The notes beneath the pieces were generated by a model. That model did not search any database and was not told the DNA's origin. It saw only the letters and a list, made by a program, of their open reading frames with translations. Below are positions 59,458 through 64,000 of a DNA stretch of 64,000 bases, piece by piece. The translations under genes were made by a program, and so were the position numbers. Numbering within the stretch: position 1 is the stretch's first letter; every line of letters starts with the position of its first letter. The stretch lies in NCBI RefSeq assembly GCF_011067135.1, contig NZ_JAAMOW010000002.1, positions 124,001 to 188,000 of the forward strand. The letters run 5' to 3'. The stretch comes from Solimonas terrae. GTDB taxonomy: Bacteria > Pseudomonadota > Gammaproteobacteria > Nevskiales > Nevskiaceae.

Positions 59458-60909
59458 CTACATGAATAGCCGATACGCATAGGCATTTCCCGGAAGACTC
59501 GGCACGTTTGCAATCGTACGGGCCAGTCGCTGCGAATATCGGATGGTGACAGGCACCGGGTCGTAGAGTGCGTCGTTGTTCCAATCCATTTTTGTCAACG
59601 CCAAGGCCTCAAGCGCTGTTATTTCGAGTTGACCGCCGCCAGCATGTCGCACGAGATTGATCGGACGCGGGATGCTCTTCTTGCCTTGGTAGTAGTCCCC
59701 CTTCAGCGCTGCTTGCGGTGCGTTTCCCGCAACCCAGACCAAAATCGATCGCCCAGAGCGATGCAGAACAGTGCCCCGAGGGACTGGGTAGCCATCGGGC
59801 TCACTCCGGTCTCTGGGCGTTTTCCCTTGCTTCAACCACACGCCACGCCAGCCCGGACCGCTCGATACCTCTACGCATTCAACCTCCAGAACGGAGGAGA
59901 GAGCGTCCAAGGCGCCTTCTAGCTCCTCAGGCTTGAAGGACGTGGTCTTATGAACGACCAAGCGTCTTGGCAAAAGCCCGCCGTTGCGACTCTGGTACAA
60001 ACTGAGACTTCGGGCGAGCACTGCACGCATGTCGGCGCGACTCAAAAACGGGTTGCGCCGTGCTTCCTCGGCATCCGCCACCGGATCGCGGGCTTCGAAA
60101 GCGACAAACTGCATTCCACCGCCATCGGCGTCGAAGACCTGCGAACAGCAGGTAACGTAGTGAGCCTCCTTCGGATCACCTCGTAGTGCGTAAGCGAGGC
60201 CAATGTAGGCGGTACCTTCAGGGACCCCGGGGAGCGGGGCCAGCTTCCAAGGAATACCACCGGCCTTCACGTAAAGGGCGATCGACAGACGCCACGCCAA
60301 CGAGGCTTTCAATGTGAACGCAATGGCGCGATCGTTGATTACCTGAGTGGGAATGCCCCGAACTGCTCCGAGCGCCTTCAAGGCGTCGTGCGCGTCAAAG
60401 CCGGGCGCGCGGAACGCGTGCTGCCAAACGTCCGGGAGATGCACCAGAGCAACGTCAAACTGATCGCGAACCAACTCCAATCGCTCCAGTGCATCACGAA
60501 GAGCTTGCATCAATCGAGCGTGTGGAAGGCCCTCTTGCCCTAACGCATTCAGATCATCAGGCAGCTTGATATGGGCAGCACCAGTCGGTGCTGCTATCAA
60601 TGGAACTTTAAAAAGCGCCTCAAATCCTTTGAACGGTGGCACGTACTCCGTACGATCACCGGGAACTTGGCTTGAGCGCACAGTGGTGATTAACGCCTTT
60701 AAGCCCGGCCAACCCGCGGCCGGTGCAATGGTGGCAACTCGCAACGCGGGGGTGTAGCTGCCAAACGTTGCAGCACTGTAAGGTCCGAAGCGATCCAAGC
60801 CGCGCAACGGATTCGTGTCCAGCGACTTGTCGTCAGGACTAAACGTCAGATCAGGTTCGTCCAGCAACGAGAAGGGCGACAGCTTTGACTCATTGAATGC
60901 GCTGTTCAT
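59458..60909 (-). CDS. Short prokaryotic Argonaute (MID-PIWI), catalytically inactive
   Basis: 483 residues with only MID and PIWI parts (no N or PAZ domain), as in short pAgos. MID segment ALKALGAVRGIPTQVINDRA at about 178-195 binds the guide 5' end. PIWI (~205-483) has YIGLAYALRGDP at 235-246, where the first catalytic Asp is replaced (IGLAY, Ala239), and LPRRLVVHKTTSFKPEE at 313-329, where the second is missing. The C-terminus YSQRLARTIANVPSLPGNAYAYRLFM is typical. It should bind a guide and activate the upstream SIR2-APAZ partner. The gene is 6 bases past the SIR2 stop, consistent with a two-gene unit. Confidence 0.93.
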   Translation of the reverse strand: MNSAFNESKLSPFSLLDEPDLTFSPDDKSLDTNPLRGLDRFGPYSAATFGSYTPALRVATIAPAAGWPGLKALITTVRSSQVPGDRTEYVPPFKGFEALFKVPLIAAPTGAAHIKLPDDLNALGQEGLPHARLMQALRDALERLELVRDQFDVALVHLPDVWQHAFRAPGFDAHDALKALGAVRGIPTQVINDRAIAFTLKASLAWRLSIALYVKAGGIPWKLAPLPGVPEGTAYIGLAYALRGDPKEAHYVTCCSQVFDADGGGMQFVAFEARDPVADAEEARRNPFLSRADMRAVLARSLSLYQSRNGGLLPRRLVVHKTTSFKPEELEGALDALSSVLEVECVEVSSGPGWRGVWLKQGKTPRDRSEPDGYPVPRGTVLHRSGRSILVWVAGNAPQAALKGDYYQGKKSIPRPINLVRHAGGGQLEITALEALALTKMDWNNDALYDPVPVTIRYSQRLARTIANVPSLPGNAYAYRLFM

Positions 60910-60915
60910 CTGCTA

Positions 60916-62772
60916 TCACCGCAAGAAATAACCGTGCTCGTGACTGGGTCGACTCCAGGCTGTAACCGGCGACAGCTTGAACACGGCATCCATGCCAGTG
61001 CCTTCCTTGAGGCCGACTGCATGGAGCGGAGGAGAGCCTTCACCGGCAAGTGTCTTTGCCCAGGCGGAAATGATCTTGGCCCAAACACGGTTGTACCGTC
61101 TGGCCCAGCGCTCGCGCCGCCAGTCGATAGCAGGATCACCTTGATAAATAGTTGAAGGCGCGATCTCATCCGGCTTGTCCTCCGAATTCCTTTCGGTCGA
61201 CTCCCGGCTAGGGAACTGAACATGTGTCATTGGCTCGAATGCACACCACCAACGATCGCCCACGCGGTCTAAACGAATCTGCACGCCCTCATTGAAGGGG
61301 TAGTCGAGATCAGGAATCGTGCCGACAAGGGCATCGGGGTAAGCATTCCTGAGTGCCTCTAGCTGCAAATATCGACGATCGATAACTTCCTGAGAATCGC
61401 CCTCGGAACCGCTCTGCACAAGAAGCGAATGTCCCTTGCGACGCAGGCGCGCAAACAAGGGCCGCCGCCGTGTCAGCGCGCGCGCCAATGCGTCGTATAT
61501 GAGACCCCGCGCCCAGCTATCCTTGTCAGGCTGCAGTTCCACTGTTCCGGCAAGGCGGGCGCCCAGGCCAGAGAACGCCCGTAGAAGGTCAGCATCCACG
61601 CCATACGCGGCGATCTCCCGACCATTGCTGGCGACTATTCCCCAGACCTGTGCCTCTCTGAGAATTTCGCGCGCGCGTGCGGTCGTTACCGGCGAATCGA
61701 CCTCAATTTTTCGAGCAGCACTTGGCATCGCAAGGATAGGAAGCGCCGAGCATTGCAGAACTGGAAACTGCCGTCGTTCCTGCAAAGGGAGCACGACATC
61801 CCGTACCACCGGCTCCGGTCGTGCCTGGAATACATGGTGCGTCAATTCTTGGGGCAGCTCGATCACGTCGGCGATATCTGCTGCCAGTTCATCAAACGTC
61901 TGAGATTCGACAATCGTTACCGAAACACCCGCTCGATCAGCAGCGCTGAGCAGTGTCGCTACCGCAGGAAGCAGCGTGTTCGCCGATCGAGTCACCCAGA
62001 AAAGCCCACCAGGATAGGCGCTCGGTTGTGCCAGCGCTCCGGACAGCGCCGCCATGACAGAGTCATCGCGACCGCTGTAGCCGACAATCACGAGGCCGAA
62101 GCGTGAGCACGCGGCGGTTAGCACCTTCTGCATTCGCGCATCCTGCGATTTCAGCTCGTCATTCGTGTTCTTCAGCTCAACAGACTGGTAGTCGCCGTGC
62201 AATTTTGCGAGCAATGGCCAACGGGATTCGCTAATGCACAACTCGGCACGCGCAACGTTATCGATAGCCGCTACCGTAAGGGGCGCGCGCTTTGCAGCCT
62301 CAAGCAATTGATTCGTGACAGTCGTCGCATCTTCGACGAGGTGATCGAAATTCGTGGTGAAAACGCAGGGTGTCTGCTTGATTGCGAGCAGTGACGCGAG
62401 GACGCGATGAGAAAATGACGGTGTACCTTTCCTGATTGCGTCGTCGATATAGGCGCGCCGATCCTCCGGACTCGGATAAACCGCCTCGAATGTCGCAGCA
62501 TATGCGGTCGGATGGTCGGACTCTGGGAGTGACGATCTCGTGCGCAAAAGCAGGTCGATTCGTTCAAGCCACAACGGATCGTTAGCATCTACCTCGCGCG
62601 TCCGTATGCCGGAGAGCTGGCAGAACAGTCGTTTTCTAAAATCGGTGATCATCGCGTAGCCGGTAGGAATACCGGCAGAAGCGGATGCACCTGCGCCGAG
62701 GAACCAAGCCAGCATTTGCGGTCTTAACCCGAACTGCCTAGCAAACTCCGGTCCCTTCAGCGTGCGAATCAC
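60916..62772 (-). CDS. SIR2-APAZ protein of the SPARSA system
   Basis: 618 residues. The N-terminal SIR2 NADase fold shows FLGAGASAS at about 24-32, TTNFDHLVE at 139-147 (N141, D143), KLHGDY with His192, and GYSGRDDSVM at 231-240. The remainder (about 330-618) matches the APAZ-type region that contacts a short Argonaute. In the known SPARSA systems this complex depletes NAD when the Argonaute senses invading DNA through an RNA guide. The ATG at 62772 overlaps the hsdS stop by 4 bases. Short-pAgo partners with TIR (SPARTA) are excluded by the clear SIR2 motifs. Confidence 0.93.
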   Translation of the reverse strand: MIRTLKGPEFARQFGLRPQMLAWFLGAGASASAGIPTGYAMITDFRKRLFCQLSGIRTREVDANDPLWLERIDLLLRTRSSLPESDHPTAYAATFEAVYPSPEDRRAYIDDAIRKGTPSFSHRVLASLLAIKQTPCVFTTNFDHLVEDATTVTNQLLEAAKRAPLTVAAIDNVARAELCISESRWPLLAKLHGDYQSVELKNTNDELKSQDARMQKVLTAACSRFGLVIVGYSGRDDSVMAALSGALAQPSAYPGGLFWVTRSANTLLPAVATLLSAADRAGVSVTIVESQTFDELAADIADVIELPQELTHHVFQARPEPVVRDVVLPLQERRQFPVLQCSALPILAMPSAARKIEVDSPVTTARAREILREAQVWGIVASNGREIAAYGVDADLLRAFSGLGARLAGTVELQPDKDSWARGLIYDALARALTRRRPLFARLRRKGHSLLVQSGSEGDSQEVIDRRYLQLEALRNAYPDALVGTIPDLDYPFNEGVQIRLDRVGDRWWCAFEPMTHVQFPSRESTERNSEDKPDEIAPSTIYQGDPAIDWRRERWARRYNRVWAKIISAWAKTLAGEGSPPLHAVGLKEGTGMDAVFKLSPVTAWSRPSHEHGYFLR

Positions 62773-63932
62773 GCAGAACCTCCTTGGTCTTCCGAAGCGC
62801 CAAATACGCGCTCCAGCGTGGCTGGGATCAGAGCTTGGTTGGCTTTGCGGATGACGGCGTGCTGGGCTCTCAACTCGGCAAGCTTCGACTGTAGGGAGTC
62901 AAAGGCACGCTGCGTCACTAGCGGTGGTACAGGAACTTCAATCTTGCCGAGGTTCGTCAGACTCAGTGTGCGATTGCGGTCGGCGGTACCGGGAGACGCC
63001 AGTCCGACTTGCTCCAACCCATCAGGAGAGAGCAGGAAGTACGCAAGGAATCGTGGTGTTGCTCTGTCTGCGAAGGGAACGCAGGTGATGTAACGGTGCG
63101 AAGCGATACATCCGGCATGCGTTTCGTCGGCCACGGCGATGGCGCCCTCCCATGCTTTGATGTTGCTGAGTACTAGATCACCTGCCGTAATCCAGACGGG
63201 CTTTTCCCAAGTCGCTTCGGCTCCATCGAACTCCGGTTTGGCAAACAGGCCCTTGCCGAATGAGCGCGCGCCAACTTCTCGGTAGCGAGTACCGATGTCC
63301 ATCTCAACTGGCCGGCGAACCGACGGTGCTACCTCCGACATAGGCCTGTAATTTGCAGACGCGATGGCCTTGCAAAAGCGCACGGCGAGTAGACGCTCAG
63401 CGTCGGCTTCGATGGCATTGAGACAGTCGGCCACCTGTGTCGTTTTTTCGGCCAAGGTCTCGAGGCGCTGGACAATGGCTAGCTGCTCGGTGAGCGGCGG
63501 CAGAGCGATGCGTTGGTCAAGGAATCGCTCCTCCTTAATACGCACCCGGTTGGTCGTGCCCTCGCTGGATGTCTTGCAGAGCTCTACGAACGCTGCTGAG
63601 CGAACCAGCCATCCAAGAAACGAGGCCTCGACGCGGTCCGCATCTACTTCGAATGATGGAAAGTCGTTGCTGACAATTGCCCCATCGAGTTCGGGTGGTA
63701 CGAGTCCGATAGCGCCGTTCCGCGCATCGATCTTTGACATGATCAGCTGATTGGCGCGAACAAAACGCCGCGCCGTACCTATATCGCCGCCGCGCACCTT
63801 GCCCCGGCTGACAACGCCCTTACCCCAGAGTTTGATTGTGACCTCGTGGTATTCACGATCTGGCAGCAGCGCCGTGGACTCATTGGCGCGGTTGAGCACA
63901 TCGCCCAAAGCCACCTGAGGCCAAGACTTCAT
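62769..63932 (-). CDS. hsdS: Type I restriction-modification specificity subunit
   Basis: 387-residue HsdS with two target-recognition domains (about 1-150 and 200-345), each followed by a conserved helical spacer. The first spacer is PPLTEQLAIVQRLETLAEKT and the second PPLVTQRAFDSLQSKLAELRAQ. Determines the bipartite DNA sequence methylated/cut by the complex. Start ATG overlaps the stop of the upstream methylase gene (ATGA) and its stop overlaps the SIR2 start (ATGA), so hsdM, hsdS and the SPARSA pair are translationally coupled. An hsdR gene is not visible and could be beyond the edge. Confidence 0.94.
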   Translation of the reverse strand: MKSWPQVALGDVLNRANESTALLPDREYHEVTIKLWGKGVVSRGKVRGGDIGTARRFVRANQLIMSKIDARNGAIGLVPPELDGAIVSNDFPSFEVDADRVEASFLGWLVRSAAFVELCKTSSEGTTNRVRIKEERFLDQRIALPPLTEQLAIVQRLETLAEKTTQVADCLNAIEADAERLLAVRFCKAIASANYRPMSEVAPSVRRPVEMDIGTRYREVGARSFGKGLFAKPEFDGAEATWEKPVWITAGDLVLSNIKAWEGAIAVADETHAGCIASHRYITCVPFADRATPRFLAYFLLSPDGLEQVGLASPGTADRNRTLSLTNLGKIEVPVPPLVTQRAFDSLQSKLAELRAQHAVIRKANQALIPATLERVFGASEDQGGSA

Positions 63933-64000
63933 GCCGAGACCTCGGATACCAGCGCTTCGATCTCACCGAGAAGCTTGAGCACTTCTTGCTCCTTGGCTCG
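63929..64000 (-). CDS. hsdM: 3' end of a type I methylase (HsdM) gene, cut by the window edge
   Basis: Only 24 codons are present; the frame reads ...AKEQEVLKLLGEIEALVSEVSA and stops at 63929. The stop overlaps the hsdS start. A C-terminal helix of this kind before hsdS is what a type I N6-adenine methylase gene would have. Assignment rests mostly on position, so confidence is moderate. Confidence 0.7.
   Translation of the reverse strand, partial: RAKEQEVLKLLGEIEALVSEVSA

Follow-up and report, generated by a model that had tools for sequence, protein, structure and literature searches.

Effector genes of the SIR2 type have a history of association with DNA-directed immunity. A 2012 survey, in which the coupling of immunity and suicide genes was proposed, links SIR2 both to type I restriction–modification (R-M) systems and to pAgo (PMC3506569), and a 2018 survey places HsdS in pAgo operons (PMC6299218). 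In Solimonas, the 3′ end of a type I R-M operon runs directly into a SIR2-APAZ/short pAgo (SPARSA) pair, which raises the question of whether the two form one regulated machine, two independent defences that share expression and transfer, or chance neighbours. Here we describe this locus, which lies at the end of a 64,000-nucleotide stretch of DNA (the window) and continues beyond it, and compare it with related loci and known systems.

Layout and gene content of the locus

Read along the minus strand, the locus comprises genes for a Phd/YefM-type antitoxin and a PIN toxin, hsdR, hsdM, hsdS, SIR2-APAZ and pAgo, followed by a convergent oxidoreductase gene. The five genes from hsdR to pAgo lie on one strand with successive gaps of 12, −4, −4 and 6 bp. 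Positions in the interval L003 (C13:180000-199999) convert to window positions by addition of 55999, and genes were called with a simple caller that takes the longest non-overlapping open reading frames (ORFs), so that starts may be misplaced. The features are as follows.

68200-68987 (window-equivalent, outside the window; L003 12201-12988), minus strand: vapC/vapB, with PIN and PhdYeFM_antitox matches
65732-68170 (window-equivalent, outside the window), minus strand: hsdR, 812 aa as called
63929..64000, minus strand: 3′ end of hsdM within the window; the whole gene spans window-equivalent 63929-65719 (L003 7930-9720), 596 aa
63929..63932, minus strand: ATGA overlap of the hsdM stop and hsdS start, in the sequence; also in Hydrocarboniphaga
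62769..63932, minus strand: hsdS, 387 aa, type I specificity subunit
62779..62784, minus strand: Shine–Dalgarno AGGAGG for SIR2-APAZ, within the end of hsdS, 6 nt ahead of the GTG
62769..62772, minus strand: GTGA overlap of the hsdS stop and SIR2-APAZ start, in the sequence; an identical GTGA in Hydrocarboniphaga
60916..62772, minus strand: SIR2-APAZ, 618 aa, GTG start; predicted SIR2 NADase domain, then APAZ
60910..60915, minus strand: 6-bp gap between the SIR2-APAZ stop and pAgo start; Hydrocarboniphaga has a 4-bp overlap instead
59458..60909, minus strand: short pAgo, 483 aa, MID–PIWI only

The preliminary description of this DNA had given the gene order from hsdM onwards, the two 4-base overlaps and the 6-base gap, all of which are exact to the base, and it had proposed looking for hsdR and hsdM at 64-70 kb, where both are indeed complete. 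Upstream, the antitoxin and PIN toxin genes overlap by 4 bp, and 29 bp separate the PIN toxin gene from hsdR, for which an ATG about 12 codons inside the called ORF may be the true start. The GTG start of SIR2-APAZ is credible, because a full AGGAGG precedes it by 6 nt and a solved homologue aligns from query residue 7. As 4-base stop/start overlaps are common within operons, the overlap alone is not rare. We infer that the five genes are co-transcribed; a promoter and terminator scan of the locus returned sites at or below chance level.

All three R-M subunits match PADLOC type I models near full length (HsdR, REase_I, 9.5e-221; HsdM, MTase_I, 4.8e-234; HsdS, Specificity_I PDLC03141, 2e-157 over residues 1-380), and HsdS additionally matches Pfam Methylase_S in two stretches (2.7e-9). 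The set is complete and, judged by these matches, hsdRMS is a type I R-M operon.

The two genes that follow are, by sequence, a SPARSA pair, as had been claimed. SIR2-APAZ matches 8in8_B/8jl0_A in phmmer (E=4e-61 over residues 7-519) and PADLOC Aga_SIR2-PNTD1-PNTD2 (4e-208 over residues 14-608), with APAZ located C-terminal to SIR2. The pAgo matches 8in8_C (E=7e-98 over residues 5-483) and PADLOC pAgo_I (7e-202). Residues N141 and H192 of SIR2-APAZ are invariant in five homologues and align with N142 and H186 of GsSir2, the pair required for NADase activity (PMC10781750). The positions of the TtAgo PIWI tetrad (D478, E512, D546 and D660) align with A, P, T and Q of the pAgo in a weak profile alignment (E = 0.0005), which supports the earlier claim that the catalytic Asp residues are replaced. 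By analogy with its relatives, the pair probably halts or kills the infected cell through NAD+ destruction.

The Hydrocarboniphaga copy and signs of transfer

One other copy of the unit was found among 61 genomes (that of the window and those of 60 relatives), in a Hydrocarboniphaga metagenome-assembled genome (MAG; L009/L089) of the same family and a different genus. It has the same hsdR–hsdM–hsdS–SIR2-APAZ–pAgo order, with ATGA, GTGA and ATGA junction overlaps. At the amino-acid level, the Solimonas and Hydrocarboniphaga proteins are 90% (HsdR), 90% (HsdM), 44% (HsdS), 71% (SIR2-APAZ) and 82% (pAgo) identical. The nucleotide similarity detected by blastn forms a block that extends from the start of hsdR to the last codons of pAgo and no further, is interrupted only within hsdS, and is bordered by differing flanks. 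A search for HsdM at E<=1e-150 across 369 genomes of the class returned only the window; a looser search in relatives added Hydrocarboniphaga and, beyond it, only homologues of 44-51% identity.

The large part of RpoB compared between the two genomes is 83.5% identical, so that HsdR and HsdM, at 90%, are more alike than vertical descent predicts, which points to transfer. The GC content of the five genes (0.58-0.62, against 0.67-0.69 around them) fits the expectation for acquired DNA. The preliminary description had proposed a single island, a proposal supported by the GC content, which is low in every part, and by the sharply bounded block of similarity. The Hydrocarboniphaga unit adjoins a tmRNA (L089 16096-16452), and tmRNA genes are usual integration sites for islands. 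In L003, we found neither a tRNA nor exact words of >=10 bp common to the two borders, and an empty-site comparison gave no clean empty site: within the genus, the left-flank gene has a single counterpart (65%, G010), and there is none for the right-flank sulfotransferase. The divergence within the unit is unequal, at 71-82% for the SPARSA proteins versus 90% for HsdR and HsdM, and could reflect either faster evolution or separate histories.

The toxin–antitoxin heads differ between the two copies, being Phd/PIN in Solimonas and AbrB-like/PIN in Hydrocarboniphaga (L009 3970-4639), with no blastp match between them. An AbiEi/AbiEii-type pair follows pAgo on the same strand in Hydrocarboniphaga (L089 4773-6438).

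A SPARSA pair might simply have ended up downstream of hsdS within a defence island, in which case the overlap would be incidental and the only benefit would be co-inheritance. Defence genes do cluster, and 4-bp overlaps are frequent in operons. However, the five-gene order and its overlaps are kept in two genera, even though HsdS is so diverged and the flanks differ. What goes beyond chance is the conservation of the whole arrangement in a second genus, rather than the overlap as such.

Neighbourhoods of related SIR2-APAZ and hsd genes

To place the coupling in context, we surveyed the best 80 of 205 relatives from 84,980 species genomes, together with loci from other searches, and built a tree that takes in 91 SIR2-APAZ proteins. 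A type I R-M gene lies <=3 bp away in three of the 91: in the window, in Hydrocarboniphaga and in G116, where hsdR precedes a distantly related SIR2-APAZ gene by 3 bp. In three more (L011, L069 and L081), SIR2-APAZ lies up to about 0.5 kb downstream of a co-oriented type I R-M gene. For G116 and L081, the contig or the stretch of sequence stops short of where pAgo would lie. In L081, a 128-aa ORF seemed to provide a join, but it matches no Pfam family, and the interval was scored as a gap of about 380 bp; L012-L014, which profiles had labelled HsdR–HsdM, proved by PADLOC and Pfam to carry an SNF2-type helicase and a type IIG methyltransferase and were excluded from the counts. In Marinobacterium litorale, a single 782-aa frame apparently combines HsdS with a NADAR domain (L011 4508-6856) and is part of the R-M operon directly upstream of SPARSA.

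On this tree, type I R-M linkage requires at least five changes and tight linkage two. The former argues against chance neighbourhood, whereas the scarcity of tight linkage argues for it, as does L010, the next closest relative after Hydrocarboniphaga, which has no R-M gene directly upstream. Weighing these points with the conservation across two genera, we regard mere chance neighbourhood as rather unlikely. Recurrence of the hsdS–SIR2 adjacency was looked for and is present in Hydrocarboniphaga with the same overlaps, so the claimed coupling is not refuted. The earlier picture of SPARSA welded to an R-M operon thus stands in that the unit is joined, complete and recurrent; it was overstated in that such linkages appear already in the 2012 and 2018 surveys (PMC3506569, PMC6299218) and that tight coupling is confined to the three proteins above. 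As far as these genomes can tell, hsdS–SPARSA coupling is real but rare. Most SPARSA pairs surveyed have no type I R-M partner, and coupling to type I R-M is therefore not needed for SPARSA function.

The other tight SIR2-APAZ partner is a Fic-family gene, which the ORF calls place directly upstream, at about −25 to +13 bp, in seven loci (L028, L029, L039, L040, L041, L050 and L007); six of these cluster in the tree. A further locus (G335; L103 4058-11070) has a PDC-S65 SIR2 gene that lacks a pAgo partner; its overlap with hsdS is 4 bp, Abi_C and hsdR come after it, and no hsdM was recognised in the vicinity.

These neighbourhoods bear on the possibility of a functional link between SPARSA and the R-M enzyme like that between PrrC and EcoprrI. 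SPARSA would then be restrained by the Hsd complex, or receive DNA or guides from it, and would be switched on when phages inhibit restriction or overload it. Such a guardian role would suit the junction of the effector with hsdS in two genera and with hsdR in a third lineage, as well as the presence of a SIR2 effector without pAgo inside a type I R-M operon (G335), and PrrC itself is a precedent (PMC12707154, PMC3506569). By contrast, closely related SPARSA pairs stand alone or beside Fic or other systems, and the SPARSA family has its own trigger, consisting of guide RNA and target DNA (PMC10781750). We consider a guardian role improbable, and give equally little credence to the wider idea that the R-M enzyme and SPARSA are one regulated machine in which restriction products or Hsd inhibition supply or release the NADase trigger. 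Were that idea true, phages that beat restriction would set off cell suicide.

Operons with related hsd genes carry other cargo at comparable junctions. A YhcG-type nuclease gene sits between hsdM and hsdS with 4-bp overlaps in an Azotobacter plasmid (L127) and in G586 (L159), and genes for a HipA-like kinase and DUF3037 follow hsdS on a viral contig (L121), joined by 4-bp overlaps. In G619, the HsdM of which is 64% identical to that of the window, a PDC-S06 gene follows hsdM, and a REase-APAZ/short-pAgo (SPARDA-type) pair lies tail to tail with the hsd operon, 40 bp apart (L164 1189-3968 and 4009-8777). Other operons with related HsdM have no joined cargo. This distribution suggests that exchangeable defence modules dock at hsd operons of this subfamily. 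The operon head may likewise be a slot with exchangeable contents: PIN-toxin modules immediately precede hsdR in three related R-M operons, those of Solimonas, Hydrocarboniphaga and a Marinibacterium plasmid, the last with a FitB (L130 5792-6214) 33% identical to the PIN protein of the window locus.

Proposed mechanism and comparison with known systems

Collectively, these observations favour, as the likely explanation, a laterally acquired two-layer defence cassette in which the layers are expressed together and act independently. A promoter ahead of hsdR or vapB would give one message that covers all five genes, and SIR2-APAZ would be translated from its own Shine–Dalgarno site, by re-initiation at the GTGA overlap, or both. 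The presence of this Shine–Dalgarno site means that translation of SIR2-APAZ need not depend on hsdS, which counts against the cassette explanation, as do the unequal divergence within the unit and the lack of a type I R-M partner in most SPARSA pairs. As in the solved members of the SPARSA family, the SIR2-APAZ–pAgo heterodimer would load a guide RNA and recognise complementary invading DNA, and the target-bound complex would destroy NAD+, so that the cell is stopped or killed. Restriction would form the first layer and SPARSA would handle DNA that escapes it, the two working independently while sharing expression and transfer. SPARSA would be one among several cargo modules added to the hsd operons of this subfamily. 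The five-gene unit has the look of two layers of phage defence that can be transferred together, not of a new kind of system.

The locus is a natural, conserved construct from which an enzyme that discriminates self from non-self DNA is probably produced jointly with a suicide module guided by Argonaute. Separating the two halves would provide a direct test of the old hypothesis of immunity–suicide coupling, as set out in the 2012 survey (PMC3506569).

No description of the joined five-gene unit was found in the literature searched, in which coverage of subscription papers was thin. The two surveys, in their accessible parts, report general SIR2 and HsdS associations and do not describe such a unit (PMC3506569, PMC6299218). 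Its halves have close counterparts. The SPARSA of Geobacter sulfurreducens (SIR2-APAZ/Ago, PDB 8in8; PMC10781750) likewise consists of two genes, SIR2-APAZ and then short pAgo; the pAgo proteins align end to end and the SIR2-APAZ proteins over residues 7-519, with the Asn/His dyad kept and the PIWI tetrad absent. The Solimonas pair differs in being joined to the 3′ end of hsdRMS, and is known here from sequence. The type I R-M system with an EcoAI/FtnUII-like HsdR on the Azotobacter plasmid pAcX50c has an HsdM that is 83% identical and the hsdR–hsdM–hsdS order in common, but it lacks SPARSA, and its hsdM and hsdS flank the gene for a YhcG-type nuclease.

Two systems resemble the combination. 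PrrC is embedded in EcoprrI (type IC) and is likewise a suicide effector within a type I R-M locus (PMC12707154, PMC3506569), and the feature common to PrrC-type guardians, an effector gene joined to the hsd operon, is present here. However, the Hsd complex holds PrrC, an anticodon nuclease, whereas SPARSA has its own nucleic-acid trigger. TgvAB of Vibrio cholerae VPI-2 is, like SPARSA in the cassette proposed here, a second, independent defence system housed by a type I R-M operon; it is a modification-dependent nuclease rather than an NADase, and it sits inside the operon, whereas SPARSA lies at the end (PMC11411939).
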